From positions 117,702-181,701 of the forward strand of contig CAUYUJ010015709.1 in assembly GCA_963575745.1 (NCBI GenBank): a stretch of 64,000 nt of DNA, written 5' to 3'. The stretch is from Prorocentrum cordatum. Lineage: Eukaryota; Sar; Dinophyceae; Prorocentrales; Prorocentraceae. Made by a program: the position numbers and the translations under genes. Positions within the stretch are counted from its first letter, which is position 1. The number at the start of each line of letters is the position of its first letter. Below, piece after piece: positions 39,079-57,108 of this stretch. The notes below the pieces were generated by a model. The model saw only the letters and a list, made by a program, of their open reading frames with translations. It was not told where the DNA came from and did not search any database.

Positions 39079-39178
39079 GTGCAGGCCGTCCTTTTTGACT
39101 GGGCGCCTTGCTGCACGCCTTGCGTCGCCTCCTTGGCCGCGCGCCCCATCGCGCAGCTGCCCAGACTTCCTCCTGTTT

Positions 39179-39207
39179 AAGGCTTCAAGATCTTAGGCGT
39201 ACTTACG
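39179..39207 (+). repeat. Left terminal inverted repeat
   Basis: AAGGCTTCAAGATCTTA followed by GGCGTACTTACG. It pairs with 57080-57108, with two mismatches in 29 bp. Confidence 0.85.
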
Positions 39208-39226
39208 AGCTACCTACAGCTGGGTG

Positions 39227-39470
39227 TAAGTTACTTCTGTTCTGTGTTAAGTAATAGTATATGTTGAGTATGTTCCCTAATTAAGGGCATTGTTTTTAAG
39301 TGCTCCTCTTGCGGAACCAAGTCACTTGCGCTACTTCTAATTATTTTCCATCCATCGCCGAGCGGGGTAAGTTACATATAAGTGCTTGTTGTAAGTTACT
39401 TAACACATTTTAGGCACCATCACTTAGTATTACCTATTATATTTACTTATAATTAACTTGTGTAAGTTAC
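39227..39470 (+). repeat. Left subterminal TAAGTTACTT motifs
   Basis: Exact copies at 39227 and 39392, with shorter forms TAAGTTACA (39367) and TAAGTTACC (39463), in an AT-rich stretch unlike the surroundings. Orientation is opposite to the right-end copies, as expected for symmetric binding sites. Confidence 0.7.
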
Positions 39471-39548
39471 CTCCTTCCCTCCCTCCCTCCCCCTCCCTCC
39501 CTCCCCCTCCGCGCCGCGCGCGCGCAAAAGGAGAGAATTGGGGGAGGT

Positions 39549-40880
39549 AGCGATGGCGATCGCTTGGGGAAGGAGGAGGAAGAGTGGGGGAGGTAGCGAT
39601 GGCGATCGCTTGGGGAAGGAGGAGGAGGAGGAGGAGGAGGAGGAGGAGGAGGAGGAGGAGGAGGAGGAGGAGGAGGAAGAGGAGTGGGGGAGGCAGCGAT
39701 GGCGATCGCTTGGGTAACGATGGACGCGGTGACGCGCATGATGGCGATAACGACGATGACGATGACGACCTATTACGACGACGATGATTATGATACTGGC
39801 CATACTGACGACACTGACGACACTGACGATGATCCTGCCGACGATGACGACGATTGCCGACGATGACGACGATTGCCGACGATCCTGACAATGATGACGA
39901 CGACTACGGCAATGATGATGACGTCGCTGATGATGACGTTGACGACGCTGATGATGATGATGGCGACGACGATGGTGATGATGACAGGCGATGACGATGA
40001 TGGCGATGATAATGACGATCATGATGATGATCATGACGGCGATGATGATGATGGCGATGAGGCTGCCTCAGACGACGGTGACGACGACGATGGCAGGAAC
40101 CCGCCCAGGACTCCAGAACAAGGACTTCCTTGTGTTGGAGCTGAGGCTATCCAGCCTATGGGTGAGTGGACGGCGCCCTCGTCGTCGTCGAGGTTGGTTT
40201 GAGGAGGTTTGGGGTTCTTGAGGTTTTGGGTTTCGGTTTTGGATTATGGTGGTTTTGGGTGCGCCGAAGTTGTTTTGGTGAGGTTTTGGTATCTGGATGT
40301 TTTAGGTTTAGGTATTGGGTTCTCTCTCCCCCGTCCCCCATCATCTCCCCCGTCCCCCATCATCTCCCCCGTCCCCCATCAACTCTCCCGTCCCCCATCG
40401 CCTCTCCCGTCCCCCATCGTCTCTCCCGCCCCCCCCCTCGGGCGATGCAGGAGGTTGGGGCTTCTCGGAGGCGCCTTCGGCTGACGCAGGGGGTCGGAGC
40501 GTCTGGGAAGCGCTTTCGGGTGATGCAGGAGGTTGGGGCCTCTCGGAGGCGCTTTCGGCCCGCTGGGCGGGCGTTCTTGGGAGCGATGGAGATCGCTGGG
40601 GCGAGCGGGGCGTGGCTTGGGAGGTAGCGATGGCGATCGCTTGGGCGAAGGGGCGAGGGGGGGCGGGGGCGGGGGTGCACGGGGAGGTAGCGATGGAGAT
40701 CGCTTGGGCGAGGAGGGCGTGGATTGGGAGGTAGCGATGGCGATCGCTTGGGCGAAGGGGCGAGGGGGGGGAGGTAGCGATGGAGATCGCTTGGGCGAGG
40801 GGGGCGTGGATTGGGGGGTAGCGATGGAGATCGCTTGGGCGAGGGGGGGCGTGGATTGGGAGGTAGCGATGGAGATCGCT
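39549..40880. repeat. Array of AGCGAT-N4-ATCGCT hairpins and spacers, gene-free
   Basis: Hairpins start at 39549, 39595, 39695, 40626, 40689, 40733, 40776, 40820 and 40865, mostly with loop GGCG or GGAG. The last six are in a tandem 44-47-bp array with the spacer TTGGGCGAGGGGG. Between them lie GGA (39617-39675) and GAC/GAT trinucleotide runs (39720-40080) and a CCCCCGTCCCCCATC array (40328-40430). No gene is seen. Confidence 0.8.
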
Positions 40881-40914
40881 TGGGCGAGGGGGCGAGGGGG
40901 CGGAGGTGATGGGG

Positions 40915-41540
40915 GGTGGTGGTGGGTGGGTGTGGGGTGGGGGTGGTGGTGGTGGTGGTGGTGGTGGTGGTGGTGGGGTGGTGGTGGTGGTGGTGGTGGT
41001 GGTGGTGGTGGTGGTGGTGGTGGTGGTGGTGGTGGTGGTGGTGGTGGTGGTGGTGGTGGTGGTGGTGGTGGTGGTGGTGGTGTGGTGGTGGTGGTGGTGG
41101 TGGTGGTGGTGGTGGTGGTGGTGGTGTGGTGGTGGTGGTGTGGTGGTGGTGGTGGTGGTGGTGGTGGTGTGTGGTGTGTGGTGTGGTGTGTGGTGGTGGT
41201 GGTGGTGGTGGTGGTGGTGGTGGTGGTGTGTGTGTGGTGGTGTGGTGGTGGTGTGGTGGTGGTGGTGTGGTGGTGGTGGTGGTGGTGGTGGTGGTGGTAG
41301 GTGGTGGTGTGGTGGTGGTGGTGGTGGTGTTGGTGGTGGTGGTGGTGGTGGTGGTGGTGGTGGTGGTGGTGGTGGTGGTGGTTGGTGGTGGTGGTGGTGT
41401 GGTGGTGTTGTGGTGGTGGTGGTGGTGGTGGTGGTGGTGGTGGTGGTGGTGGTGGTGGTGGTGGTGGTGGTGGGTGGGTGTGGTGGTGGTGGTGGTGGTG
41501 TGGTGGTGGTGGTGGGTGGTGGTGTGGTGGTGGGTGGGTG
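40915..41540. repeat. (GGT)n microsatellite, ~620 bp
   Basis: Nearly uninterrupted GGT triplets. The poly-Gly, poly-Val, poly-Trp and antisense poly-His frames of up to 524 codons are artefacts. Confidence 0.95.
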
Positions 41541-41900
41541 GCGCGGGGGTGGGGGGGGCGGGAAATAGCGATGGCGACCGCTTGGGCGAGGGGGAGTGTA
41601 TGGGGAGGTAGTAGCGATGGCGATCGCTCGGGAGTGGGTAAGGAGGATGGTATAGAGGAGGGGGTGATGAGGCGGAGGATGAGGCTTATTCGACCAGAGA
41701 GCGGATGGAAGTGGTGGATTGGGTGAAGAGCATCAGGGAGGGGGAGGGTGGGGAGGGGGGGGGGAGTCGGAGGCGGTGGAGGGCAAAGCGATCTCGATCG
41801 CTGTGCGGTCATTGCCGCTAGCTTAGCCGTCCACTGGTTAGCCGTTGCTGGCCCTGGCGGGTGCGCGCGCGCGCCCCCCCGTTGCCGCCGCGCTAGCATC

Positions 41901-43457
41901 ATGGCGGCCAGCGCGCTGGTGGAGCAGCTGAAGGCCGCCGCATCGTTCCTCACTCAGCTTGAGAAGGGGGGCAATGCATATAAGGAGGTCGTGACGGCAC
42001 AGTGCTGCATGGCGATGGGCGTTATGGAGCCGAGGACCTTCGTCTCCGCCGAGGACTCGGCCGCGCTGATCTTGCAGATCGGCAAGATGCCATTCGGCAA
42101 GAAGAAGATGGCCACGCTGCTTGGCCGCGTCACGGAGTCAGCCACAACGTCGGCGAATATGTTGGTTGCCAGCGCTGCCGCGGGCGCAGAGCTGATGTCG
42201 GTGACCAGGGCGCCCATGCAGGACTTCACGTCGATCACATCATACCTGACGGCGGCGCAGTGGGCGGAAATACTGGATAAGGACAGCGACTTCATGGACC
42301 GAGTTGCGGCCATGATGCAGGCGTGCAAAACAAAAAAAAAACTCGGGTTGTGCACGTTGCATGAGCCGACGATCCAAATGGCGACGTGCACCGCCCTCGC
42401 GGTGGAGGGCTTCGAGCGGGCAGCGCGCCAGCCCCCGTTGGCCCTGTCCGGCTATTTTCAAGAGGGCGAAGTCGTACACCAAGAAGCTCCCCCCGTGGAG
42501 TGCAAGCGCCCTGCCGAGGTGGGGCCGTCGTTCGTCGATAAGCTCCCCGAGGACGCGGTTGCCATGCGGAGGGCGCGCCGAGACGTCTATTCCCGCGTGT
42601 GCGCCGAAAGTGGCGATGTCCCAGTCAAGTGCCCGCTGGACGTCACCCAGCTGCTCGTGTTGAGCGACGCGGTCCCGATGCGGGAGAACAAAGCTCGCCT
42701 GGAGAGCTCTCCTGAGCAATCGAGCGTCGACATGGCGCTGCAGCTCGCCGACAGGGCGATTGCGCTGAATCGCGGGCGCGAGGACAGCGGTGCGTTGCGC
42801 GACCGCGACGTTCCCTTCAGGCGATGCACGCCCAACCAGGCCGGGCCGCCGCCGCTCGCCGACGCGGCGCCCGCGCCCGCCGCGTCGGCCGATGCCGAGA
42901 CGCCGTCGAAGCACAGCGTGGAGGAGGCAAGGGACAATATCCACGCGCAGCTGGGGGGCAAGACGCCGAGCGTGTCCCACAAACCGCCGTCGCAGAGCGA
43001 CGGCGAGTCGGATGACGACGGCAGCGACGACGACTCCGACTCCGAGAGCGAGGGCGGCGCCCCCGCGGCCAGCGCGGCTGGCGATAAGAAGAGGAAGGCC
43101 GATGAGGCGAAGGCGGAGGAGGCGAAAGGGAAGAATAATAAGAAGAAGAACAAGAATAACAAGAAGACCAAGACGGCGACGAAGGAGACTGCCGCTGCGG
43201 CGAAGGCGGCGGACGATAAGAAGACTAAGCAGAAGAAGAAGGCGAATGCGGGCAAGAAGTCCCCGAAGCCATCGTGCTCGATGGAGTGGTCCCGCGACCA
43301 GGTCTTGTGCCGAACTGGCCTTAAAGGCGCAGGCCAGTCGGTTGCATACAAGGTCGCCGACTACGGCGGCAGCAGCGACAAGGCGATCTCTGCGGCCAAG
43401 AAGTGGGTGGCCACGCAGACGAAGAAGTGCGTCGCGGGCTGGTTCGCGCGCTACTGA
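41901..43457 (+). CDS. Element gene a: unrecognised 518-aa protein with acidic/basic linker
   Basis: Starts at MAASALVEQLKAAASF. This is the first ATG after a hairpin (41787-41802, loop CTCG) 98 nt upstream. Residues 1-180 look globular and helical. About 355-450 is a low-complexity stretch, first Asp/Ser/Glu and then Lys/Asn/Ala. The C-terminal 60 residues (from MEWSRDQVLCRTGLKG to KKWVATQTKKCVAG) form a compact, basic module that might bind nucleic acid. The stop is TGA 43455. It is the first gene of a co-oriented set. I do not recognise a family; an accessory or DNA-binding role in the transposon is inference only. Confidence 0.75.
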   Translation: MAASALVEQLKAAASFLTQLEKGGNAYKEVVTAQCCMAMGVMEPRTFVSAEDSAALILQIGKMPFGKKKMATLLGRVTESATTSANMLVASAAAGAELMSVTRAPMQDFTSITSYLTAAQWAEILDKDSDFMDRVAAMMQACKTKKKLGLCTLHEPTIQMATCTALAVEGFERAARQPPLALSGYFQEGEVVHQEAPPVECKRPAEVGPSFVDKLPEDAVAMRRARRDVYSRVCAESGDVPVKCPLDVTQLLVLSDAVPMRENKARLESSPEQSSVDMALQLADRAIALNRGREDSGALRDRDVPFRRCTPNQAGPPPLADAAPAPAASADAETPSKHSVEEARDNIHAQLGGKTPSVSHKPPSQSDGESDDDGSDDDSDSESEGGAPAASAAGDKKRKADEAKAEEAKGKNNKKKNKNNKKTKTATKETAAAAKAADDKKTKQKKKANAGKKSPKPSCSMEWSRDQVLCRTGLKGAGQSVAYKVADYGGSSDKAISAAKKWVATQTKKCVAGWFARY

Positions 43458-43470
43458 TCGGCGCGGGCGC

Positions 43471-43599
43471 GATGATGCTGATGCTATTTCGCATCTTGGG
43501 GTCCTCCGACCCTGCGGCTCGCAGCAAGTCCATCCTCTTGGTGGCAACTGTGGCGGGCCAGCTGTTCGCCTTCGTCCAGCAGCTGGGGATGCTGGGCTG
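43471..43599 (+). CDS. Small hydrophobic ORF (42 aa)
   Basis: The ATG lies 14 nt after the stop of gene a. The product begins MMLMLFRILGSSDP and has a hydrophobic stretch ILLVATVAGQLFAFVQQLGM, like a single membrane segment. It is short enough to be chance or the 3' UTR of gene a. Confidence 0.25.
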
Positions 43600-44081
43600 A
43601 GCCTGGTCGGCGATAATTCGCGCGCGGGTGCTGCAACGGCGCAGCATGCATGCGTTGTCGAACACGCCTCGTCGACTGCGCCGCCGAGGATGGGGGCGGG
43701 AAAAATATGGAGGAGGGTAGCGATGGCGATCGCTCGGGGAAGGATGAGGAAGAGTGGGCGAGGTAGCGATGGCGATCGCTCGGGGAAGGAGGAGGAGGAG
43801 GAGGAGGAGGAGGAGGAGGAGGAGGAGGAGGAGTGGGGGGGGTAGCGATGGCAATCGCCTGGGGAAGGAAGGGGAGGAGGAGGCGAAGATGGCGGCGACG
43901 CGATGGTGGCAACTTGGATGGGGGACGGGGTGCCCTCAGGACGAGGGGCGAAGCGACTGCGATCGGATGGGAAGGGAAGGGGATACGGGTCGGCAGTGGG
44001 AGGCAGACGGGGCGGGGGGAAGCGATTTCGATCGCTGGCATTGCGCGCGCATTGCGCATAGCATTTATCGCACGCGTTGGC

Positions 44082-44098
44082 GTAGCCATTTTTTGGCT
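44082..44098 (+). promoter_or_regulatory. Spliced-leader-like sequence before gene b
   Basis: GTAGCCATTTTTTGGCT matches the core of the dinoflagellate spliced leader (GTAGCCATTTTGGCT) with a two-T insertion, 49 nt before the ATG. The hairpin-to-here segment (TGGCATTGCGC...CATAGCA) resembles the one before gene c. Confidence 0.5.
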
Positions 44099-44147
44099 CG
44101 CACGCGGCCGCCCGCCGCGGCTGTGACTGCGGCAACTGCGGCCGAGC

Positions 44148-45536
44148 ATGGCGTCGGACGCCGCGGCGAACGCCGCGGGCGCGTTCTTTCAGGCCGCCAG
44201 CGCGTTCGACGCGTTGTTGGGCCGCCACGAGGGCGAGGAGGCGGCCGACGCCGCAGAGGAGGCGGCCGCTGCGTCGCGTGCCGCCGCGGAGGCGACTGCG
44301 GCCGAGCGCGCGCACTATGCAGATGCCGCCGCCGAGGAGGAGGAGGCGGCTGCCGCTGACGGCGATGAGGAGGCCGCCGCTGAGGACGATGCGCAGGCTT
44401 CCGACGCGGGCACTGAGGAGGCGGCTGCCGCTGCGGGCGCTGCTGAGGCGGAGGAGGCGGAGGAGGCCGCCCACGAGGAGGCGGCTGCCGCTGCGGGCGC
44501 TGAGGAGGCCGCCCACGAGGAGGCGGTGAAGGCGGAGGTGGTGCTGTCGGTCAGCATCGACTCCGAGGACGAATGCGCCGACGCTGCCCTGGCGGCGGTG
44601 TCCGAGGCGCGGGGCGATAGCAGCGGCGCGGCCGTGTCCGAGGCCCCGATCTCGGGCGGCTCGGCCCAGAGCTCGGGGTCGGCCGACGGGAGCTCTCTGG
44701 GCGGCGCGCCGTTGACCATCGAGCTCGGGGTCGGCCGCCGCGTGCGGCAGAGGACAGCGGAGCCGCCGAAGAGTGCGCCACCCGCCTACGCTTCGGTGGA
44801 GGTGTCTGCCGCGTCGCACGCGGCGTACGCGGGGGTGCTGCCGCGCACGTCCTCGAGCGCAGGCAGCGCGCGCGGCCTGGCTCCAGCGTGCGCTGGCGCC
44901 CCTCCCCCGCGGCCATCATCGCAGGTGCGTCCTGCGCGCCCGTTCGTGCCCGTGCCGTCGCAAGTGCGCCCTGCAGGCCCCGCGCCGTCGCAGGGGGTGC
45001 GCCCTGCCGTGCGACCTGCGCCGCATGCGGAGCCGACGGAGGCGGATCGGGTCGCCACGTGGGAGGCTGTGTACAACAACAGGTACACGCCCGATATGAT
45101 AGCGGACCTGCGCGCGGAGTCGGCGGTGGCGAGGAGCATGGGGCTCTCATGGGCTCAGCGCGGCCCCGTCGGCCCAGACGAGGGCGGCCCCATGACGTGG
45201 CGCGGCCAGAACTACCGCTGGAACACGGGGAAGTGGGCCAACAGGGGCGGCAAGAACAAGGCGTACTTCGCGGCGAAGTACGCCCGCGGCGCCTTCGGGC
45301 CAGGGACGCGCCCCCCTGGGTCGCACCCGCAGGTGGCGCCGCCGCAGGTGCGCCCGAAGATGGCGCCGACGCAGGTGGTGCCGCCCCCGCGGGTGGTCCG
45401 CCCGCCGCCACGCGGGCCGCGGCCCGCGGCCGCCGCCCCCGCGGCCGCCGCCCCCGCCGCCGCGCCCGCGGCCGCCGCTCCCGCGGCCGCCCCGTCGACC
45501 GTGGCGAAGCGGCCGCCGCCAACGCGGTTTCTGTGA
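44148..45536 (+). CDS. Element gene b: Ala/Glu-rich protein with conserved-looking C-terminal module
   Basis: 462 codons from MASDAAANAAGAFFQ. A hairpin (44021-44036, loop TTCG) ends 111 nt upstream, and a spliced-leader-like sequence lies at 44082-44098. Residues 1-130 are an Ala/Glu coiled region. 130-270 is Ser/Pro-rich with repeated RPA/SQVRPA. About 300-390 is compact: ATWEAVYNNRYTPDMIADLR, then GPMTWRGQNYRWNTGKWA and KAYFAAKYARG. The tail is Pro/Ala. No family is recognised. The tryptophan/arginine-rich module could contact nucleic acid; that is inference. Confidence 0.7.
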   Translation: MASDAAANAAGAFFQAASAFDALLGRHEGEEAADAAEEAAAASRAAAEATAAERAHYADAAAEEEEAAAADGDEEAAAEDDAQASDAGTEEAAAAAGAAEAEEAEEAAHEEAAAAAGAEEAAHEEAVKAEVVLSVSIDSEDECADAALAAVSEARGDSSGAAVSEAPISGGSAQSSGSADGSSLGGAPLTIELGVGRRVRQRTAEPPKSAPPAYASVEVSAASHAAYAGVLPRTSSSAGSARGLAPACAGAPPPRPSSQVRPARPFVPVPSQVRPAGPAPSQGVRPAVRPAPHAEPTEADRVATWEAVYNNRYTPDMIADLRAESAVARSMGLSWAQRGPVGPDEGGPMTWRGQNYRWNTGKWANRGGKNKAYFAAKYARGAFGPGTRPPGSHPQVAPPQVRPKMAPTQVVPPPRVVRPPPRGPRPAAAAPAAAAPAAAPAAAAPAAAPSTVAKRPPPTRFL

Positions 45537-46370
45537 GGCCGCGTGCTGCGCTCGCGGCCCGCCTGCGGCTGCCCTCGGCCGCTGCGGGCCCGCCCTCGCC
45601 CGCGGCTCGCGGCCGCCTGCTCGCTGCCGCTCCGATCGACTGTACAGGGAATGGGTGGCGAGCCCACCGAGCCTCGCCGAGCTCGGCGCCGAGCTCGGCC
45701 CCCCTGGCGCCCGCTGAGTGCCGCCCTCGGCCGCGGCTCGCGCCCGCGGCCCGCGCGCCGTCCTCGGCTCGCGGCCGCTTTCCTTCGCGCCGCGCGCGGG
45801 CGGCGCGCAAAAGAGGTCGGGCTCGCCTTGGCGCAGGCGGCCATAGTATAAAGTGGCCCATCGTCGTCATCGTCGCCGTCGACGGGTCGCTTTCCAAACT
45901 TGATTGGCAGTGTCAACAGGTTTTTTTGTTGGAGACCTGGGCCAAAAAAAACGCGGATACCTGGACCTAAAACGGGCACAGCGGAGGGCTCATACTGGCT
46001 CCAACGCCCTGCACTGGCGTGGCAGTGGCAACGTGTTTCATCGGCCCTAAGGGCCCTTGGCCGCAGAAATCATATGGGTCAGTGTCCGCTTGTCCTCGTC
46101 TCGTCTCTTGTCTTCAATGCGATTCCCGACGTGTGCGCGTCGTCGCTCCCCCCAGCGATCGCCATCGCTTCCCTGCTCATCGTCGGCGTCATCATCGGCA
46201 TCGTCGCCGTCGTCGTTGCCATCGCCGCGGTCATCGTCGCGATAACGGTCATCAGCGTCGTCGTCGTCATTGTCGCCGTTGCAATCGTCGCAGCCATTGT
46301 CACCGTGATGATCGCCATCGCGGCGACGGCACACAGACGACACTGACGACGACGACGGTGTCTGTTGGGT
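45537..46370. other. Gene-free spacer between genes b and c
   Basis: Holds a 36-bp repeat (45654-45689) found again at 52239-52274, an inverted hairpin AGCGAT-CGCC-ATCGCT at 46154-46169, and GTC/ATC trinucleotide runs (46175-46335). Overlapping open frames have no domain. Confidence 0.6.
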
Positions 46371-46461
46371 AGCGATTCCGATCGCTGGCATGGGTAGCGA
46401 TTCCGATCGCTGGCATGGGTAGCGTTTCCGATCGCTGGCATGGGTAACGATTCCGACCGCT
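46371..46461 (+). repeat. Four tandem 25-bp hairpin units before gene c
   Basis: AGCGATTCCGATCGCT followed by GGCATGGGT, at 46371, 46396, 46421 and 46446. The last two have single or double changes (AGCGTT..., AACGAT...ACCGCT). Confidence 0.9.
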
Positions 46462-46476
46462 GGCATTTGCACATAG

Positions 46477-46496
46477 CATAGCCATTTGTTGGCTCA
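46477..46496 (+). promoter_or_regulatory. Spliced-leader-like sequence before gene c
   Basis: CATAGCCATTTGTTGGCTCA: spliced-leader core with an inserted GT, 16 nt after the last hairpin. It is the counterpart of 44082-44098. Confidence 0.45.
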
Positions 46497-46638
46497 CGAG
46501 GGCGCCCGCTGGCCGCGAGCCGCGGCCGAGGGCGGCACGCCAGCGCCTGCGCCTGCGCCGACGCCAGCACCGACGTCAGCACCGACGCTAGCGCCAACGC
46601 CAGCGCCGACGCCAGCGCCTACACCAGCACCGTCAGCC

Positions 46639-47686
46639 ATGGCCGATGAGACCAAGCCGGAGGCGGAGGAGGAGTGGTACAGGGTGAAGTGCCCTTTACA
46701 CAATGGCGGGATGGTGGCATACAAGTCCTCGCACGACTTGTGCGTCGAATGGCTCGACAACCACTTGCAGAGTAGCACTGTGGAGTCGCGCAAGTTCTAC
46801 CAGGGCGAGCCCGATGCGGAGGGCCACGCGCGGCGCGAAGAAGTCCCCCTGGCGATCCTCGAGGACGAGATGCCGTCTGAAGAGGTGCGGGAGTGGAGGA
46901 AGTACGAGGGCCAGAAGGAGAAGGAGAAGGCCACCGCTGGGCGCGGCAGTGACAGCGCCGCCACCGCCGTCGCCTCTGGGCGGCGCGACCGCCGCAGGTC
47001 GCGCAGCCGCCGCCGCGGCGATCACCGCGCCGATCCCTCCCTCGGCGACAGCCACCGCGGCGACCGCGGTCAGCGCCGCCACCGCGGCGAGCGCCCCGAG
47101 ACGCCGCCGCGCCGCGGGGCGCCGCCGCCGCTCCCGAGCCACCCGCCGCCGCGCTCGGACGGCTCGAGCACGCACGAGGCTCTGCTGAAGACGGCCGAGG
47201 TGCTGCAGGGGACGGTGCAGAGCGTGGCGGCAATCGTGCACTCGGGCAGCAAGGCACCAGGACCTTCGTCGGCGGCCTCGATGTCGCTCGTCATGGCGCC
47301 AATGGCGGGCGGCACTGCTACCTCATCGGTAACCATCTCGGCGGCGAGCTGCAAGGCGGCAGCGGCGACGACGACGACGAGCAGGGAAGCGATGGTGATC
47401 GCTGACGGGGGGATGGAGGCGACGACGCACGCGCGACATGACGACGACGCTGGCGACGAGGATGGCGACGGCGACGACGACGCCGACAACGACGATGACG
47501 AGGCGACGATGGCGGCGACGATGCAAGGCGGTGAACGACTGCATCAAGCGGGCGGAGGCATGTGCCAGCACGGCGGCGGACGTGTGCGCCAAGGCGGCCG
47601 CCGCGTTCCGCGCCGAGTCGCAGTCCCTGGCGTCGGCGAGGGCAGACGTGGAGGCAGCGCTGGCGAACGCGACGAGGTCGAGCTGA
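46639..47686 (+). CDS. Element gene c: Arg/Ser-rich protein, two exons
   Basis: Starts MADETKPEAEEEWYRVKCPL. Exon 1 is 46639-47355 and exon 2 is 47528-47686 (TGA). Joining AASCK to AVNDCIKRAEACASTAAD keeps one frame. The 172-nt intron (47356-47527) begins GC and ends AG and is bounded by the direct repeat TGCAAGGCGG. Residues 1-95 look globular with a conserved-looking CPLHNGGMVAYKSSHDLCVEWL segment. 105-175 is Arg/Ser/Pro-rich, RS-like, suggesting RNA binding. The end is an Ala-rich coiled coil. The unspliced frame runs to 47694 but turns low-complexity in the intron. Family unknown. Confidence 0.7.
47356..47527 (+). other. GC-AG intron of gene c, carrying a hairpin
   Basis: Bounded by copies of TGCAAGGCGG at 47350-47359 and 47522-47531. 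It starts GCGGCAGCGG and ends GATGCAAG, and contains the hairpin AGCGATGGTGATCGCT at 47388-47403 and GAC/GAT triplet runs. Direct repeats at splice borders are typical of dinoflagellate introns and of introner elements. Confidence 0.75.
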
Positions 47687-47699
47687 CGGCCTGACGGGT

Positions 47700-48341: not shown

Positions 48342-48725
48342 CATAAGTGACTTAAGTAGCACCCAGTGTTATCCTTTTTTTATATCCTTTTGTTATCCTT
48401 TGTTATCCTTTTGTTATCCTGGGATCAGGGCCGATAGGATAACAAAAGGTTATCAAAAAGGATAACAAAATGATAACAAGGGTCAAATAGGATAACAAAA
48501 GGATAACAAAAGGATAACCTGTTATCCTATCTGACCCGTGTTATCCTTTTGTTATCTTTTTGTTATCATGTTATTATCCTTTTGTTTTCCTATTTGACCC
48601 TTGTTATTATTTTGTTATCCTTTTGCTATCCTATCTGGCCCCGATCCCTGGATAACAAAAGGATAACGAAGGATAACAAAATGATAACAAAAGGATAACA
48701 CGGGGTGCTACTTAAGTCAGTTATG
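48342..48725. mobile_element. MITE-like palindromic insertion with GGATAACAAAA repeats
   Basis: Terminal inverted repeats of about 36 bp: the left starts CATAAGTGACTTAAGTAGCACCC, the right ends with its complement, with two or three mismatches. The interior is almost entirely GTTATCCTTTT on the left half and GGATAACAAAA on the right half, so the whole 384 bp can fold back. It is AT-rich, unlike its surroundings. No ORF. Confidence 0.75.
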
Positions 48726-48879
48726 CCACTTAGGCGAGCAAGTAACTTAGCGATGGTGATCGCTGACGCATAGAGGCCCCGCGCTTACTGGTGTCAGCCT
48801 CGCGCGGATCAAGCGCGCCCGTTAGCGGGCCCCTCGCGCGGGGCGCGTCCGCGCCCAGGCAACCAGGCAACATCAAGCG

Positions 48880-48949
48880 ATGGCCGACGCTGCGGCCAGC
48901 GACGCGGAGACGCTGCGTCTCGCGGGCCCAGGCGGCGAGGTCAGCGACG

Positions 48950-49009
<60 letters not shown>

Positions 49010-51813
49010 TCTCGGCGTGGTCAGCGACGCGGAGACGCTGCAGCTCGCGGGCCCAGGTGAGGGAGAGATCCAGGAGGCGCCCATCCAAGAGTTGGGCTTG
49101 GGCGCCGAGGGGGCGCCGCGATCCGATGGTGGTCCATCCGCGGCGGCGCCGCCATCCGATGGTGGCCCATCCGCGGCGGCGCCGCCATCCGATGGTGGTC
49201 CATCCGCGGCGGCGCCGCCATCCGAGGCGCCAGCCGCGCTGCAGCCGCCGCCAGAAGATGAGGAGGCCGATGAGGAGGAGGGCGCATCACGGGCCGCGCT
49301 CAGGAGGCCAGCCGCTGCCACCAAGCCAGCTATGAAGCCAGCTATGAAGACGGGGAAGGCCCGCGCTAAGGAGAAGACCGCTGCCGTGGCCAAGGAGAAG
49401 GCCCGCGCTAAGGAGGAGGTGAAAGCAGCCGCCAGGGAGAAGGCCGAGGCCGTGGCCAAGGCAAAGGAGGCCGCCAGGAACAAGGGGACGGGATACGCCG
49501 ACATCGCGAGCTCCATGCGGCCGGCGGTCGCAGCGTCGAAGGGCGCGGCACCGCCGCCGCCGAAGAGGGCGTCGGCGAGCGCGGGCTCCGCGAAGGCGAG
49601 CGGAGGCCCCCCCGCAGGCCGCCGCGTCGGCGAGCGCGAGGCCGAAGGGCGCGGCACCGCCACCGCCGAAGGGTGCGAAGCAGCAGGGCGTGCCGCCGAA
49701 GGCGAAGGGCGTGCCGTCGAAGGCGACGGAGGCGATGTCGCCGCCGAAGGCGAAGGCGGCGGGCACGGCAACCGAGGATGACGGCTGGGGCGAGGGCGCT
49801 CCGGGCGCCAAGTGGAAAGTCGGGGCGTTCGCCCTGAACGGCAGCCCAAGCAAGAGGGCGCAGCAGCTGTGTTTGGAGGAAGCAGAAAGAGCCTACTTGT
49901 GCGACCGATGCCAGCAACCATGCGACGTTATGAAGGCGTACCCCGTCCGCGTCACCAAAAAAGGACAAGTGTTCAGATGCGCGCTGTGCAGCACGAGAGG
50001 GGTGCAGGCCACCGGAGCGCCCGAGTGGAAGGGGGTATCGTCGGGCCTCAAGAGCTTCAGCGTCGAGGAGAGGACGAGCTTCTGGGCCTCGGTGAAGGAC
50101 TGCCCAAATACGTTCGCAGTCAAAAAGTTCTTGAAGGAGACGCTGACGAGCATCAAGGAAAAGGGGGGCAAGCACATGACGAAGGGGGGCTACTACCCGT
50201 TGGGCTGGTACAAGAGGCAGGGGTTCCCGTGCAAGAGGATCCGCAATACGTGCACGGACACGTTATCCCATCCAATTCTGGGAATGTGCTACAAGGTGGA
50301 CATTCACCTGTTCGAGAAGTGGGAGGCCCAGATCGCGAGTCGCTCGAGAGCCGAAGGGGTTGAGGCCGAAGTTTCAGACGAGGGGGATGTTAATGAGAAC
50401 AAGACGATGAAGAAGAAGGCTGCCGCGGCCTCCCAGCATGACGACCAGGGTGACACGGATGATTCTTTCGAACAGGATGAGGACGATGATGAGGTGGAGG
50501 ACGCGCCTGAGGCGAGCACGTGCTCCGACGAGGAGGAGCCCCATTCCGATGAGGCCGATGACGATGATCAGTACGGCACCGATGACAGCATGGGTGAGGG
50601 GGACGGTTCGTATGTGAAGAGTAGCGATTCCGACGATGGCAGCGACGCAAAGAAGGGCAAGGCCAAGGGCAAGGCGAAGGATCAGGATAAGGACGCGCGC
50701 AGGGGTAAAGGCAAGGAGAAGCAAAGGGGCAAGGATAAGGACAAGGATAAGGACAATGATGCGGCCAAGGAAAAGGACGGCGGCAAGCGCAAGGCTAAGG
50801 CCAAGGATAAGGACGGCGGCAAGCACAAGGATAAGGACAGCGGCAACCACAAGGATACGGCGAATGACGGGGGCAAGCATAACGATAAGGCCAAAGAGAA
50901 TAATGCAGATAAAGAGAAGGACGGCGGCAATCATAAGGATAAGGACAGCGGCAAGCATAAGGACAAAGGCGCTGACCAGGACAAGGACAGCGGCAAGCAT
51001 AAGGACAAAGGCAGTGGCAAAGAGAAAATCAAAGGTACCGATAAGGATAACGACGCTGGCAAGAATCGGAGCAAGGATAAGGATGATAGCACGGGTAAAG
51101 ACGGCGGCAAGCACAAGGACAAGGCCAGCGGCAAGAACGCATATAAGAATGCGGACGGCGGCAAGCATAAGGACAAGGACATCGGCAAGCATAAAGATAA
51201 GGACACTGGCAAGGATACGGCCAAGGGCAAGGCTAAGGGCGCTGACAAGGGCAGTGGCACGGGCAAGCGCAAGGGCGCTGAGATGTCCGTTTCGTCTCCT
51301 GCTTCCAAGAAGTCCAAGAAGGTGAAGCCGCCGAGCACCAGCAGCAGCTCGGGCTCGGACAGCGACAGCAGCTCGGACGCCCCGCCTCCGCGCGGGCACG
51401 GACAGCGAGGACCTTCTGCGCCTCCGACCGAGACCGAGAGGGAGCGCAAGGCGCGCGAGAAGGCAGAGAAGCATGAGAAGGCAGACGCAGATAAGAAGGA
51501 GAAAGATCTCAGGCTCCTGGTCACGCGCTCCCTGGCCAAGATCGTGATGCCCATGTTCAAGCTGGGGATGGCGATGCAGTCTGGCACCCCAGGGGTCAGC
51601 AAGATCCCAGAGGCCATCATGACGCAGGCCACTGGGCTGCTGGAGAAGCTGAGCACGATGAAGAATGTCGGGGAGAAGATCAATAAGAACAAGGCCTACC
51701 CGTCGACGTTCACGTGGACCGCGGAGGAGGTCCACGCCTGCGCGCAGCAGGCGGCCGCGCAGGCCCAGGTGGTGAGCACGATGGCCAAGTCGATGGCAGC
51801 TCTCCCTGGCTGA
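48880..51813 (+). CDS. Element gene d: zinc-finger protein with long Lys/Asp-rich repeat tail
   Basis: Starts MADAAASDAETLRLAGPGGE, 115 nt after a hairpin (48749-48764). An 80-nt GTC-rich insert (between 48939 and 49030) is flanked by the repeat GGTCAGCGACGC; removing it restores the frame, so it is probably an intron. The frame changes once more at a C7 run (49607-49613), where six C would keep one frame: an indel or assembly error. From 49690 the frame is open to 51813. Order: Ala/Lys coil; a zinc-binding segment with CDRCQQPC and CALC (nt 49900-49990); a globular stretch to about 50340; an acidic stretch; about 200 residues of KHKDKD/GKHKDKGS repeats (50640-51280); and a helical C-terminus. 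Family unknown. Confidence 0.65.
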
Positions 51814-51948
51814 GCCGACGATGGCCAGGACGTCGCCCCCTGAGGGCGTGATTGCCCGCGGCGCGCCCGCGCTGCGGCGCGCCGCGCCCCGACGGGTGGA
51901 CAGGCGCTCGTCGGCGGGTGCGGTTGGAACCGAAAAGGGAAAATGGTA

Positions 51949-52172
51949 AGCGATGTCGATCGCTCGGCGGGGGTGGAGGGGGCAAGCGATGTCGATCGCT
52001 CGGCGGGGGTGGAGGGGGGAAGCGATGACGATCGCTGGGGCGAGCATGAGAGCGATGTCGATCGCACGGCGGGGGTGGAGGGGGTAAGCGACGTCGATCG
52101 CTCGGCGGAGGTGGAGGGGGGAAGCGATTGCGATCGCTGGAGGGGGGAAGCGATGAAGCGATAGCGATCGCT
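51949..52172. repeat. Hairpin array before the transposase-like gene
   Basis: AGCGATGTCGATCGCT units with a GGCGGGGGTGGAGGGGG spacer at 51949, 51985 and nearby, then loops GACG, GTCG, TGCG and AGCG. The last copy is 52157-52172, 105 nt before the ATG. Confidence 0.9.
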
Positions 52173-52202
52173 TGGGCGGGCGGGGCGAGGCTGGGCACAC
52201 AA

Positions 52203-52219
52203 TAGCCGCGTCGGCTCGA
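52203..52219 (+). promoter_or_regulatory. Spliced-leader-like sequence before gene e
   Basis: TAGCCGCGTCGGCTCGA keeps the TAGCC-N5-GGCTC(A/G)A pairing layout of the spliced leader with a changed loop. It lies 30 nt after a hairpin and 58 nt before the ATG. Weaker than the copies before b and c. Confidence 0.35.
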
Positions 52220-52238
52220 GGCTCGACCGCAGGGGGTT

Positions 52239-52274
52239 GGTGGCGAGCCCACCGAGCCTCGCCGAGCTCGGCGC
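52239..52274. repeat. 36-bp repeat (copies at 45654-45689 and, degenerate, ~54700-54738)
   Basis: GGTGGCGAGCCCACCGAGCC then TCGCCGAGCTCGGCGC is identical at both places. The flanking GAGGCTCGACCGCA...GTTGG also resembles coding sequence inside gene f (54698 onward), so it may be a copied piece of that gene. Confidence 0.7.
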
Positions 52275-52277
52275 GCG

Positions 52278-54323
52278 ATGGCCGCGTCGGCCCGCGCCTC
52301 TGGAACTGCGAGGGGCGCGCGAACGATGGGTGACGTCGTCGGCGACAGCAAGGCCAAGCGGCGCAAAATATCCGAGCTCATCCGCACGAGTGGGATCACG
52401 GGCAGAGCCCTCGCACAGCTCGCCAAGGAGATCTCGCATCAGCCTGACGTTGCCGAGCACGTAACCCGACAAAATACCCGTAACACCTTTGATGGCGTGC
52501 TCAATGCCGTCTCGACGACCATCCAGCTGCCCGTGGACGGCATCGGCGCGCCCTTCGAGTGGACGGTCGCCCGAGTCGACAAGCTCCTGAATTACATGTG
52601 TCGCGAAAGCACATCGTGCAGTGAGCGATTCGCGGAGGCGGTGAGCAGCGCCCGTGGCGCGCCGTTCAATCTGGCGTTGTATGCTGACGAAGTCACGCCA
52701 GGCGACGCATTGGCCCTGCGGCACGATCGGAAATACTGGGTATTTTTCTTTACCTTCACAGAGTTCGGCGTTGCACATCTGCACAACGAAGAGCTGTGGC
52801 TGCCGCTGGGGATTCTGCGGACAACAGTGAGCGACAGCGTGGACGGCGGCATCTCATGCGTTGTTCGGCTCCTCCTTAGGGAGGTGTTCTTCGGGCGCAG
52901 CAGGCTGGCGAGCTCTGGCGCGCCCGTGACGCTTGCCAACGGCACCTCGGTGCTGGCGCGGGCGCGGGTTGGCAAGATTCTCGCCGACATGGACGCTCAC
53001 AAAGGCATCCTATGTTTGAGGGGCGCCAACGGCTGGAGGCCGTGCTTGAAGTGCAAGAACGTGATCATGAAGTCTGCCTCCGTCGGCGGCGACGGCGGCT
53101 ATTTCGTCGACATATGTTGCCACGAGTTCGCGCGCTTCGACGCGCAGTCAGCCGACGACGCGTGGAAGCTGTGGGACGACCTCGCCGCTGCGTGGGCGAC
53201 CGCGGGGTTACCTGGCCATGTATCGAAAGCTGACTTCAAGAAGCTCGACAAGGCCAGCGGTTTCAACTATCATCCCAACGGCCTGCTGGAGGATAAGGAA
53301 TTGCGGGCAGTCGTGAAGCCGTCCGGCATGGCATATGACAGCATGCACAGCCTGTGGAGCAACGGCGCCGTTGGATGGGAGGTGTTTGCGTTTACGACGG
53401 CGTGCAATAGCAGGGCGAGCATCACCTTTCCCGATTTCCACAGGTTCACGCGGCGCTGGCAGTTCCAGCGCGGGCGCCCGCGAGCTGTGCACAATATGTT
53501 CTCGCCTGGGCACGCGACCGCGTGCAGGAAGTCATTCAAGGCAGGCGCGAGCGAGCTGGCATCGCTCATCCACCTCGTGGTGGCGTTCGCCGAGGAGAAA
53601 GCCGTCGGCGTCGAGTCTCTGGAGCGCGAACTGGCGTCCCTCCGCGCGCGCGGCCTGCTGGCGCGCGCGTTCATGGACGTAAAGCGTGGGACAGTCGCCC
53701 CTCGCGGCGACTTCGTTGCATCGGCTGAAGTCCATCTGGACTTGCACAAGCAGGCTTACGGCGCCCGCTACGTGAAGCCCAAGCACCGTTACGTGCTCCA
53801 CAGCGCGGACCAGGAGCCCAAGGAGCTCGACTGCTTCGTGACGGAGCGCCACAACAAGATGGTAAAAGCAGTCGCCGAACCAGTGCTTTGCACCTCGCGC
53901 TTTGAGTGCACGGTGCTCGCGAGCGCAGTGTTGCGCCAAGAGAGGCAACTCGAACCAATGGGGCCGACTGGCAACGCGCTGACGGGGACTGCAGCCGACT
54001 CCGACGAGTTGCGCTCCTTTGTCGGGGACGTCGACGTCTCCGTGTCGGTTTCGCTGCGCTGGGGCGGGCAAACGTACAGCGTGGGCGATGTGGTTCGCTC
54101 GCGCGGTGGCGAGATGTTCGTCCTCGACGCGTGCGCTGCCATCTCTGGCGAACTGCACGTCGTCGCGCGCGGGATCGAAATTTCAGCGCGCTCGCAGGGC
54201 AGGAGTACTGGGCGCGTGATCGACGAGTTCCTCATCATCAAGATGGCCGATGCCTGCCTGGAGCCCACGGCGTGGGCGTGGCGCGTGACGCGCAGAGGCG
54301 ACTACGTAGTCTTGCACTCGTAG
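52278..54323 (+). CDS. Element gene e: putative DDE transposase (681 aa)
   Basis: Starts MAASARASGTARGARTMGDV. LYADEVTPGDAL gives a first Asp (D137). It is followed by a beta-rich FFFTFTEFGVAHLHNEELW block and a CLKCKN pair (C256, C259) with a later CCHEF. AYDSMHSLWSNG supplies a D-x-x-H motif (D354, H357), and DCFVTERHNKMVKAV supplies a Glu (E523). This D...DxxH...E order with an inserted zinc knuckle is the pattern of RNase H-fold transposases of the CACTA/Plavaka/KDZ grouping. A final ~100 residues form a beta-rich domain. It lies in the right half of the element and is the best candidate for the enzyme that acts on the inverted repeats. Assignment rests on motif reading only. Confidence 0.6.
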   Translation: MAASARASGTARGARTMGDVVGDSKAKRRKISELIRTSGITGRALAQLAKEISHQPDVAEHVTRQNTRNTFDGVLNAVSTTIQLPVDGIGAPFEWTVARVDKLLNYMCRESTSCSERFAEAVSSARGAPFNLALYADEVTPGDALALRHDRKYWVFFFTFTEFGVAHLHNEELWLPLGILRTTVSDSVDGGISCVVRLLLREVFFGRSRLASSGAPVTLANGTSVLARARVGKILADMDAHKGILCLRGANGWRPCLKCKNVIMKSASVGGDGGYFVDICCHEFARFDAQSADDAWKLWDDLAAAWATAGLPGHVSKADFKKLDKASGFNYHPNGLLEDKELRAVVKPSGMAYDSMHSLWSNGAVGWEVFAFTTACNSRASITFPDFHRFTRRWQFQRGRPRAVHNMFSPGHATACRKSFKAGASELASLIHLVVAFAEEKAVGVESLERELASLRARGLLARAFMDVKRGTVAPRGDFVASAEVHLDLHKQAYGARYVKPKHRYVLHSADQEPKELDCFVTERHNKMVKAVAEPVLCTSRFECTVLASAVLRQERQLEPMGPTGNALTGTAADSDELRSFVGDVDVSVSVSLRWGGQTYSVGDVVRSRGGEMFVLDACAAISGELHVVARGIEISARSQGRSTGRVIDEFLIIKMADACLEPTAWAWRVTRRGDYVVLHS

Positions 54324-54609
54324 CGCCGCGCCGCGAGGAAAAGGAGAAAAGCGCCGCGCCGCGGGCGGGGGGGGGGGGGGGGACGCAGGGAGCGATGGGG
54401 ATCGCGGGGGTGTGGGGGGGGGAGGCAGGGAGCGATGGGGATCGCTCGGCTGAAGCGATGGCGCTCGCTTGGGAAGGCAGGGGGCGATTGCGATCGCTTG
54501 GGAAGGCAGGGGGCGGTGGGCAAGCGATTGCGATCGCTCGCGACGGCGGCGCCCGCTCCGCTGCACCCCCGCCCCTCCCCGAGCCGCGCGGCAGCGGGCG
54601 CGCGCAGCC
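54324..54609. repeat. Hairpin-bearing spacer between genes e and f
   Basis: Contains a G19-like run (54367-54382) and degenerate hairpins near 54393, 54431 and 54452. A full AGCGATTGCGATCGCT is at 54523-54538, 71 nt before the next ATG. Confidence 0.7.
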
Positions 54610-55665
54610 ATGGGGCCGCGTCAGCCGCGTGGGCCGCCGCCGAGCCACCTGGTCACGAAGGCGGCGGCGCCGCGCTTCGAGGCGCCGCCCGTGGTGCCGT
54701 CGAGGCTCGACCGCATGGAGTTGGCGGCGTGCCCATCGAGGATGACGGCGCCGCCGCCCGTGCCGAAGCCGCCCGTGGCGCCGCCGCCGCGCGTGGCGAG
54801 GCCGCCCGTGGCGCCGCCGCCAGTGGCGAAGCCGCCCGTGGCGTCGTCGGGTGCCGTGGCGCCCGCGCCGCTGCGGCCGCAACGCGCTCGCCGCGACGAC
54901 GAGTTCGCGGCGCCCTCGCTCGATGAGAACGCCGCGGCGTCTCGTCGGTGGCTCCTCCAGCGAGCTCGCGAGCTCTCGGCGGCCCCAGCCGCCGCCGCCG
55001 CCGTCGCTGAGGAGGGCGCCGCCGCCGTCACTGAGGAGGGCGCCGCCGCCGTCACTGAGGAGGGCGGCGGCGCCGAGGAGGGCGCCGCCGCCGTCACTGG
55101 GGAGGGCGCCGCCGTCACTGAGGAGGGCGGCGACGCCGAGGAGGGCGCCGCCGCCGTCACTGAGGAGGCGCCGCGACGCCGCCGCCTCCCGCGTCGGAGG
55201 TGCGGCTTCGGAAGCGGCCGCGGGCCGATATCGAGGCCGAGGCGGCGGCGATCAGGCTGCCGCCTGTTGTGCCTGAGGCGCTGCGCCGTGGCGGGGAGGG
55301 CACCGAGTGGGAGATGGCGCCGTGGTGGCCCGACATCGAGGTCCACCACAGGCGATGCATGCAGTCCCTGGTCCTGGCGTTCCAGTATTGGGTCGAGGCA
55401 TCGGCCCAGTACCATGCCTTTGCGGCAGAAATGCGGAGGCTGGGCCTGGACGGCTATCCTGGCAGCAGCGAAGGCTTCCTACGACCAGGCGTGGGAAGAT
55501 TGGACGGAGCAGGTGCAGTTCGAGGTCGCAGACGACGGCGGGGTCGACTGGTCGTGGCGGCCAGGCAGCCGCTACGACGTGGCGTCGCGGCAGCACGCGG
55601 CGGCGGCAGGAGCGGCAGAGGCAGCCGCCTCTGCGGCGGCGGGAGCGGCAGCACGCCCGCAGTGA
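54610..55665 (+). CDS. Element gene f: Pro/Ala/Glu-rich protein, two compensating frame changes
   Basis: Starts MGPRQPRGPPPSHLVTKAAA. A PPV-rich stretch and repeats of EEGAAAVT follow to about 55165. The most protein-like continuation is then in another frame (RLRKRPRADIEAEAAAIRLP, then EMAPWWPDIEVHHRRCMQSL). It returns to the first frame near 55453 as AILAAAKASYDQAWEDWTEQ and ends with an Ala-rich tail. The two changes cancel, which suggests indels in this copy or assembly errors in GC-rich sequence. The WW/YW-containing middle looks structured. No family recognised. Confidence 0.5.
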   Translation: MGPRQPRGPPPSHLVTKAAAPRFEAPPVVPSRLDRMELAACPSRMTAPPPVPKPPVAPPPRVARPPVAPPPVAKPPVASSGAVAPAPLRPQRARRDDEFAAPSLDENAAASRRWLLQRARELSAAPAAAAAVAEEGAAAVTEEGAAAVTEEGGGAEEGAAAVTGEGAAVTEEGGDAEEGAAAVTEEAPRRRRLPRRRCGFGSGRGPISRPRRRRSGCRLLCLRRCAVAGRAPSGRWRRGGPTSRSTTGDACSPWSWRSSIGSRHRPSTMPLRQKCGGWAWTAILAAAKASYDQAWEDWTEQVQFEVADDGGVDWSWRPGSRYDVASRQHAAAAGAAEAAASAAAGAAARPQ

Positions 55666-56150
55666 GCGCTGGCATGGAGTGCCGCGCGCGGGCGCGGCGC
55701 GCGAAGGGGCGCGGCGGACGCGTCACCGCGCGCGCGCAGAGGTAAAAACAAAGCGATGGGGATCGCTGGGCGGAGGTGAAGCGATGGCAATCGCTTGGGA
55801 AGGCGGGGGGCGATGGGGATCGCGGAGGTGCAGCGATGGCGATCGCTCGGGAGGGGGAGGAGGGGGAGGACGAGCAAGCTGCTTTAACTGTTTTAACGCC
55901 GTTTTTGGCGCCAACTGCTTTAACAGATTTAACGTCGTTTTGGGCGGACGGGGGACAGTAGGAAGTGGAGGGGGAGAGCGATAGCGATCGCTGGGAGGGG
56001 ACAGTAGGAAGTGGAGGAGGAGAGCGATAGCGATCGCTGGGAGGACGAGGAGGATAGCGATAGCAATAGCGATCGCTGATCGCCGCGCGCTGCTCCAGCT
56101 CGCGGGGGCGCCGCCGCGCCGCCGCGCCGCGCGCCGCCGCGCGCCGCCGC
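55666..56150. repeat. Hairpin-bearing spacer between genes f and g
   Basis: Hairpins or close variants at about 55754, 55781, 55833, 55975, 56023 and 56062. A pair of TTTAAC-G-GTTTT-like direct repeats lies near 55885 and 55920 (CTGCTTTAAC...AACGCCGTTTTTGGCG). No gene. Confidence 0.7.
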
Positions 56151-56886
56151 GATGGAGGAGGCGCGGGGGGCTCGCGCGCGGGCGCTGGACCGCCAGGTCG
56201 GCACCTTGCTGGCGCGGCTCGCGGAGGCGGAGACCTCTTCCTCCCAGCGATCGTTATAACTCGCTCTCCCCCGCCTCCTCCTCCGCGTCCTTCCCTTCCC
56301 CCCCCCCCTCGCCTTCCCCCCTTCCTCCCCTTCCTCCTCCTCCCCCCCTCCTCCCCCTCCCCTTTCCTCCTCCCCTTCCCCCTCCTCCTCCTCCCCCCCC
56401 TTTCCCCCCTCTTTCTCCTCTTCCTCTCCTTCCTCCCCTTCCTCCTCCTCCTCCTCCCCTCCTCCCCCCCCCCCCTCCCCCCCTCGTCCTCCTCCTCCCA
56501 GCGATCGTCATCGCTCTCCCCCGCCTCAGGCCGTCAACGCTCAGCAGACGGAGCGGGCCCGCCAGCTCTCGCAATGGCTGGGCGAGGCGGGATGCGACGA
56601 CGACGACGACGTCGACGACGACGGCGACGACGAACGAGGCGGTGGTGGAGCTGAAGAAGGCGATCGAGGAGAGGGGCGCGGCGCTGAAGCGGGATGCGGC
56701 GCTGAGGGGCGAGAGGGGCAAGCTGCTGAAGGAGAATGAGGAGAAGGCGAAGGCGAAGGCGGAGAAAAAAAGAAGAAGGAGAAGAAGGAGAAGAAGGAGA
56801 GGGGGGCGGCGGCGAAGGAGGCGGAGGCGAAGGCCAAGGCGAAGCCGAAGGGCAAGGGCCGCGCGAAGGCAAAGGGCAAGACGTGA
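56151..56886 (+). pseudogene. Element gene g: coiled-coil, Lys-rich protein in pieces
   Basis: The first ATG after the hairpin at 56062-56077 reads MEEARGARARALDRQVGTLL and reaches a stop near 56255. A pyrimidine-rich ~280-nt tract (56245-56525) that includes a hairpin follows, probably an intron. AVNAQQTERARQLSQWLGEA (56530-56590) resumes, then a GAC-rich stretch, then VELKKAIEERGAALKRD in another frame (56645 on). A shift in the A7 run near 56766 leads to a Lys/Ala tail ending TGA 56884. It looks like a two- or three-exon gene with at least one indel. A coiled-coil, basic protein; function unknown. Confidence 0.45.
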
Positions 56887-56951
56887 GCGCCGCGCCTCCT
56901 CCCTCCTCCCCCTCCTCCCTTCCCCCTCAAGCAACAGTTGGGAATACTTAT

Positions 56952-57018
56952 AAGTAACTTATATGTACCCCTTAAGTAACTTACAGCGTGTACGCTATGG
57001 TAACTTATAAGTAACTTA
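56952..57018 (-). repeat. Right subterminal AAGTAACTTA motifs
   Basis: Exact copies at 56952, 56974 and 57009, inverted relative to the left-end TAAGTTACTT copies. A further copy at 48740 lies beside the MITE-like insertion. Confidence 0.7.
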
Positions 57019-57079
57019 TATCTAACTCAGGTAAGTAGCATCAGTACAACTAAGATACTTAGCCTACATATAGCTAGGG

Positions 57080-57108
57080 CGCAAGTACGCTTAAGATCTT
57101 GAAGCCTT
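57080..57108 (-). repeat. Right terminal inverted repeat
   Basis: CGCAAGTACGCTTAAGATCT then TGAAGCCTT, the complement of 39179-39207 with two mismatches. Confidence 0.85.

Follow-up and report, generated by a model that had tools for sequence, protein, structure and literature searches.

One or two proteins are usually enough to move a cut-and-paste DNA transposon, and in En/Spm one of these, TNPA, binds the subterminal repeats. The terminal inverted repeats (TIRs) of CACTA/En-Spm elements have the core CACTA, or the variant CACTG. CACTA elements have been described that combine TIRs with subterminal repeats over several hundred bases and carry two open reading frames (ORFs) (PMC8978399), and En/Spm (CACTA) families of 16–20 kb with four to five ORFs occur in the red alga Chondrus crispus (PMC6431247, citing Kojima et al. 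2013). Transposases of the CMCT clade have the catalytic residues D, D and E, with C(2)C and H(3-4)H between the second D and the E; their target duplications measure 2–5 bp (2 bp for PlavakaA), and the termini are mostly 5'-CA..TG-3' (PMC12730594). Here we analyzed a stretch of 64,000 nucleotides from the dinoflagellate Prorocentrum cordatum (contig CAUYUJ010015709.1, positions 117,702 to 181,701; hereafter the window), which holds a large unit bounded by TIRs. This unit is very probably one copy of a family of giant dinoflagellate DNA transposons that are of the cut-and-paste type and carry several genes. The family is a defined unit of about 17.3 kb with many collinear copies, TIRs, mirrored subterminal repeats, a 2-bp target duplication that is mostly pyrimidine-purine (YR), and a core of five genes. 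A first-pass annotation of the window had interpreted the interval as a large DNA transposon, which the paired TIRs, the collinear copies and a second, diverged family all support.

Copies, ends and target duplication

The host assembly (4,128,499,153 bases in 21,875 contigs; copies are named by contig, C...) was searched with a 17-mer of the TIR, which occurs once per strand within the window, allowing up to two mismatches. This yielded 201 forward and 227 reverse matches versus 97 and 101 for the reversed control, so that about half of the matches may be due to chance. One hundred of the 428 places were listed and their pairs counted by eye. Among these, at least 20 convergent pairs (window included) stood 15.1–18.2 kb apart, four pairs 7.3–8.9 kb apart and five pairs 20.8–37.0 kb apart (18 places for the last two groups), while 42 places had no partner in that list. 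The TIRs are therefore not merely single dispersed repeats, as 40 of the 100 listed places form the 20 pairs. Ten of these pairs were read whole; of nine others besides the window, and of C6778, only the ends were read. The ten whole copies aligned in order with the reference copy, C15773, over 15.9–17.5 of 17.6 kb, with gaps mainly in the right third. Their pairwise identity was 91.5–97.6%, reaching 99.7% for the two copies of C15550. These two (C15550:169604-186519 and 237714-255025, or C15550a and b) are 68 kb apart and have nearly identical flanks, reflecting either a segmental duplication that carried the transposon or an assembly effect. The short pairs, of 7.3–8.9 kb, lie on C13722, C17667, C18777 and C6778 (ends read for C6778 only) and are possible internally deleted, non-autonomous forms.

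The 29-bp TIRs first proposed, with 27 of 29 matches, were confirmed at 39179-39207 and 57080-57108. The large unit that they bound is real and dispersed, but its limits had been set at 39179..57108 and were corrected to those in Table 1. Other copies end in CTTAAAGGCTTCAAGATCTTA...TAAGATCTTGAAGCCTTTAAG, with the termini CTTAA..TTAAG, the outer bases of which are mutated in the window copy. Because both of its outer ends are mutated, the target duplication was overlooked by the first-pass annotation, which had reported none to be obvious: the window copy is flanked by TG on both sides. These flanks were found after a 1-bp shift, needed because the left end seems to have lost one base. The 2-bp flanks were identical in 17 of 20 independent copies, as compared with a mean of 6.5, and never 17, when the right flanks were permuted (200000 permutations). 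The three exceptions were C13456 (ca/gc), C14100 (ta/ca) and C6778 (tg/cg). YR dinucleotides made up 39 of the 40 flanking dinucleotides, and no direct repeat of exactly 1 or 3–8 bp was found in the 20 copies. C15550b was left out of the independent set because its two flanks match those of C15550a at 99.5 and 100% identity. The target sites tended to be C-rich to the left and G-rich to the right of the dinucleotide (L-3 C in 15/20, R+4 G in 12/20), which suggests a preferred near-palindromic target.

We considered the possibility that the unit was a segmental repeat or satellite-like block with incidental inverted ends. Its strong simple-sequence and repeat content, and the location of C15550a/b within a duplicated segment, would agree with this. 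Yet at 17 of the 20 sites the same dinucleotide borders the unit on both sides although the surrounding DNA differs from site to site, and in the 21 copies read the unit stops where the TIRs do, which makes this explanation extremely improbable.

Table 1. Positions of the features in the window.
Feature	Position	Strand	Comment
Whole transposon	39176..57112	+	17.94 kb; collinear with 10 other genomic copies
Left target-site duplication, TG, 2 bp	39174..39175	.	identical 2-bp flanks in 17/20 independent copies
Right target-site duplication, TG, 2 bp	57113..57114	.	
Left TIR	39176..39207	+	outermost bases mutated relative to other copies
Right TIR	57080..57112	-	
Left subterminal (W)AAGTTAC cluster	39226..39470	+	4 motifs in window copy; 3–6 in other ten
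Right subterminal (W)AAGTTAC cluster, mirrored	56952..57019	-	4 in window copy; 2–4 in other ten
Palindrome AGCGAT-N4-ATCGCT, 39 copies	39549..56515	+	38 outside ORFs, 1 in 3' part of ORF3 (47388)
ORF1	41901..43457	+	about 515 aa; homologues 48–84% identical
ORF2	44148..45536	+	homologues of piece 75, 75, 56 and 42% identical; present in family B
ORF3	46639..47694	+	about 350–400 aa; start inferred from reading frame
ORF4	48880..51813	+	about 800–900 aa; homologues 68 and 49% identical over central piece
ORF5	52278..54323	+	681 aa; likely DDE transposase
ORF6	54610..55665	+	about 320–360 aa; frame broken in window copy
ORF7 (tentative)	56560..56930, approximate	+	charged, coiled-coil-like segment; seen in several copies

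A second family with the same five genes

A genome search with P0004, a protein 42% identical to ORF5, indicated that there are at least 68 near-full-length transposase matches in the genome, 68 having been scored out of 3286 candidates. A frame of 718 or 729 amino acids (aa) was present in 43 of the 68, and 41 of these were stop-free. Two of the copies, C15353 and C3158, belong to a second family (family B, the family of the window being A). Their sequences agree at 99.3% across about 16.1 kb, and both have the end CTTCGAGAATGGTGGTTCTTATGCTAGTTGCACC, a TIR that is perfect over 34 bp as measured in C15353. The termini are CTTCG..CGAAG, and the transposases of the two families are 66% identical. 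Both families have CTT at the tip and TCTTA at TIR positions 17–21, as read by eye. Ten further family B copies were examined at their ends, C2651 lacking the right end in the stretch taken; the 2-bp flanks were identical in 8 of the 11 copies with both ends and differed by one transition in the other 3. The flanks of C15353 are AA/AA, not YR. Two database proteins, P0003 and P0011, are family B proteins (92 and 96%).

In C15353, frames for ORF1 (495 aa), ORF2 (within a 500-aa frame), ORF3 (362 aa), ORF4 (905 aa) and ORF5 (703 aa) follow each other in the order and orientation of the window, and all five are open; C3158 gave homologous matches at the corresponding places. The first-pass annotation had suggested a search for shared gene sets, and ORF1–5 recur as such a set. 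In family B the genes stand between TIRs that differ from those of the window copy, and all five are retained in unchanged order. As this order is retained in a diverged family, the genes form a conserved set rather than random cargo. Of the seven co-oriented genes initially predicted, ORF1–5 are firm because of family B and ORF6 is likely because of its homologues; ORF7, with no match to a family B ORF at the corresponding place, is only tentative. The 99.3% identity of the two family B copies and the 41 stop-free frames among 68 matches make recent activity likely.

The ratio of nonsynonymous to synonymous substitution rates (dN/dS, NG86) between family A (C14100/C10402) and family B (C15353) was 0.54 for ORF1, 0.58 for ORF2, 0.80 for ORF3, 0.38 for ORF4 and 0.49 for ORF5, calculated from alignment windows with 30% identity or more, a filter that favors conserved stretches, and without a wrong-frame control. 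ORF1, ORF2, ORF4 and ORF5 each have database homologues at 42–53% identity. These values bear on the possibility that the element is an ordinary CMC-type transposon with one or two genes (ORF5, alone or together with ORF1) that gained passenger genes once. Chondrus has large En/Spm elements that carry additional ORFs, ORF6 has been replaced in a subfamily and ORF3 is weakly conserved, all of which would fit. However, the order and orientation of ORF1–5 are kept between families with different TIRs and transposases only 66% identical, and dN/dS is 0.38–0.58 for four of the five genes (ORF1, 2, 4 and 5). We therefore consider a passenger origin unlikely. As both families, though diverged, have retained these five genes along with a palindrome in the gene spacers (see below), the complete set seems to be under selection for a role in transposition or expression.

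The individual genes differ in how well they are preserved. ORF1 has a basic C-terminal domain with three predicted strands and a helix, which gives a lead to an AP2-like fold; in the window copy, one stretch of it is seemingly out of frame. ORF2 has a low-complexity N-terminus and a conserved C-terminal domain (RYTPE..DLRAE..TWRGQ.YR.NTGKWANRGG). The N-terminal ~90 aa of ORF3 are conserved, with 40% identity over 90 aa at the same place in family B, and the protein database search found no homologue of it. ORF4 comprises a CxxC..CxxC-type central domain, a KD-rich repeat region and a conserved C-terminus, and is split over two frames in the window copy, its homologues matching in two frames. 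ORF6 homologues are 88–97% identical over 70–93 aa of a piece (P0021 and P0022, 96–97% over 70–76 aa), but only 50–69% over their length versus the window copy. P0021, P0022 and the ORF4 homologue P0013 are listed as proteins of Prorocentrum cordatum. The homologues of ORF2, ORF4 and ORF6 were found with a chimeric query, so that identities apply to each piece and shorter pieces had fewer search words. P0002 and P0014, homologues of ORF5 and ORF6, may lie on one 7,046-bp contig. With the frames of ORF1, ORF4 and ORF6 affected, the window copy is partly decayed.

The likely transposase and the relation to known elements

The transposase-like gene noted earlier is ORF5: four clusters of homologues in the protein database, 88, 84, 66 and 42% identical, cover 96–98% of its length. 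Its 681-aa frame is open in 6 of 11 family A copies. In five sequences, down to 42% identity, the residues D137, D237, D239, C256, C259, H503, H508 and E523 are invariant and in this order, and thus agree with the CMCT signature D, D, C(2)C, H(4)H, E at the level of the sequence motif. Many other residues of the alignment are invariant too, so that the likeness is a match of pattern. ORF5 is likely to be a DDE transposase of the EnSpm/Plavaka/Transib (CMCT) kind.

Several observations weigh against the interpretation of the unit as a multi-gene transposon of this kind. The predicted structure of ORF5 was unusable (mean predicted local distance difference test score, pLDDT, 42.7), so that the catalytic residues and the fold are putative. 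Pfam gave no convincing match for ten readings of the element, eight of which were without any family at E 0.1, and a genome search with PF02992 returned 0 matches, the controls being equally silent. The ends are CTT..AAG, not CA..TG, as mostly in the CMCT clade, or TGT..ACA. Since they do not fit, we call the element CMCT-like as a working name and do not assign it to EnSpm; it is possibly a new superfamily. Selection on ORF3 between families was weak (0.80 over 115 codons). ORF6 is dispensable: the sister copies C14100 and C16544 lack it, and in its place, in the right third, they have a second copy of the beginning of ORF1 and of the sequence upstream of it. Within family A, dN/dS of C14100 versus each of 10 copies was about 1 for the five ORFs (mostly 0.6–1.6; up to 3.4 for ORF3, on very few silent changes), much as in a non-coding control stretch (0.6–2.1), and family A may therefore be dying. 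Finally, the roles of ORF1–4 are inferred. As far as the sequences indicate, family A copies seem to decay after a burst, and on our reading selection would act on the lineages that move, not on resident copies. In 11 family A copies, A>G and T>C changes (1038 + 957) exceeded C>T and G>A changes (757 + 661) relative to the column majority, an unusual GC-ward bias in a G+C-rich sequence.

The remaining Pfam results were similar. ORF1 gave a weak match to DUF7297 (E 0.026), and a low-complexity reverse-strand reading (39453-40034) gave 20 weak matches, the best being Frizzled (8.5e-5; 22.4 bits versus a cut-off of 22.3), which we took as a composition effect. The five transposases gave a single match (E 0.22), the ORF1 homologue set 16 families (best E 0.019), and seven further homologues one match (E 0.27; P0015, P0016, P0018 and P0020-22 left out). 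Transposase_21 or related families matched neither the element readings nor the five transposases.

The CMCT-like element shares with the CMCT clade the order D, D, C(2)C, H(4)H, E in ORF5 and a 2-bp duplication within the range of 2–5 bp, and differs from it by its five-gene core and its lack of Pfam-detectable similarity. With CACTA elements it has in common TIRs, clusters of subterminal repeats at both ends and a transposase plus a second protein; it differs in having at least five shared genes instead of the two described, and arrays of intergenic palindromes. Neither the CACTA nor the CACTG core is found at the termini of family A (CTTAA) or B (CTTCG). The En/Spm families of Chondrus resemble it in size, in being DNA transposons with several ORFs rather than one or two, and in their algal host. 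They belong to another host lineage; the ends are CTT..AAG here, and the part of the description that we compared does not mention spacer palindromes. Because these 16–20 kb elements with 4–5 ORFs are the nearest precedent, the element is not a categorically new kind. No description of it was found among the listed titles and abstract openings of the literature on Prorocentrum, on dinoflagellate, CACTA/KDZ/Plavaka-type and giant transposons and on EnSpm of Chondrus crispus, a provisional result with subscription journals and Repbase outside its scope.

The first-pass annotation had seen no polymerase, integrase or tyrosine recombinase and had judged that the unit did not fit Maverick or Starship; the Pfam scans of the ten readings and of the homologues covered, and the 2-bp duplication, bear this out. 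Maverick/Polinton target duplications measure 5–6 bp, Starships have a tyrosine recombinase (DUF3435) as first gene, and piggyBac and Teratorn duplicate TTAA. Starships, from fungi, are likewise large and rich in genes as far as described, but no tyrosine recombinase was found by Pfam in the ten readings, and TIRs and a DDE-like enzyme are present instead. A TTAA duplication, prompted by the family A ends alone, was ruled out because family B ends differently and the direct repeats measure 2 bp; piggyBac and Teratorn were rejected likewise, as TTAA occurs only inside the family A TIR, family B ends in CTTCG and the duplication is 2 bp. Introners are short and are spliced like introns; the present unit measures 17 kb. 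Maverick/Polinton elements are described as 15–25 kb long, with many genes including PolB and a retroviral-type integrase (PMC6431247). Neither enzyme was detected by Pfam in the ten readings, where very diverged forms could escape, and none of the 20 copies had a duplication of 3–8 bp. A size of 15–20 kb, TIRs, several genes and near-identical family B copies would also suit a DNA virus, or an element like one (of the Maverick/Polinton or another type), that has integrated by means of a transposase. Against this, Pfam found no polymerase, integrase, capsid or packaging ATPase in the readings and homologues scanned, the duplications are of 2 and not 5–6 bp, and a search of viral contigs with the ORF5 alignment, by way of two short patterns, gave no relative, so that a viral nature is very unlikely.

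Repeats, palindromes and a possible mechanism

The mirrored subterminal TAAGTTAC(TT) motifs previously noted are clustered in the outer few hundred bases, with one extra reverse copy inside, at 48740. In one copy of each family, TAAGT occurred 7 and 6 times (A) and 6 and 5 times (B) in the outer 400 bp, versus 0.09 and 0.05 times per 400 bp inside. The repeat family said to be confined to the interval is indeed so: GATCGCT was found 41 times inside and 0 outside, and AGCGATN2CGATCGCT 25 times and 0, the shorter CGATCGC being present 32 times inside and 2 outside in the window. A palindrome, AGCGAT-N4-ATCGCT, is found in nearly every gene spacer of both families. With a loop length of 4, there were 39 sites in A and 52 in B, of which 1 and 0 were inside ORFs; in the window copy each gene spacer holds 2–12, and the last 182 bp none. 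Changes in the arms were compensated in 0 (A) and 1 (B) cases and one-sided in 12 and 13. This excess of one-sided changes favors a DNA word bound by protein over an RNA stem; the RNA-hairpin reading was rejected as improbable on these counts.

These observations lead us to propose that the ORF5 transposase would cut at the CTT..AAG ends and join them to a target with a 2-bp stagger. The C-terminal domain of ORF1 and the zinc-ribbon-like domain of ORF4 are putative DNA binders of the subterminal TAAGT repeats and/or the spacer palindromes, by analogy with TNPA of En/Spm. Such element-encoded proteins might assemble the ends, and might activate the genes of the array or link their expression. 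If they bind DNA in this way, ORF1–4 would be components of a transposition and expression apparatus and not passenger cargo. More tentatively, and with more doubt than confidence, the element could represent a separate superfamily of eukaryotic DNA transposons in which a DDE transposase acts only together with at least four obligate co-encoded proteins and an element-specific 16-bp spacer palindrome is read by an element-encoded alveolate AP2-type protein, a logic like that of bacterial transposons with several proteins, such as Tn7.

Elsewhere in the window, at 7937-23878, three open frames follow one another, the first two about 2200 aa long and the third 851 aa. They contain, respectively, a Tpt1/KptA RNA 2'-phosphotransferase domain (E 1.6e-15), a RING finger (9.3e-8) and an RVT_2 reverse transcriptase (2.4e-10), possibly a copia-type retroelement adjoining or carrying unusual genes.

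The multi-gene transposon suggests that mobile DNA can bring along a complete group of helper genes rather than a single enzyme. It lends itself to tests of how giant DNA elements move, and it may contribute to the growth of dinoflagellate genomes. Dinoflagellate promoters are poorly understood, and the spacer palindrome would offer a defined cis-element in these organisms.

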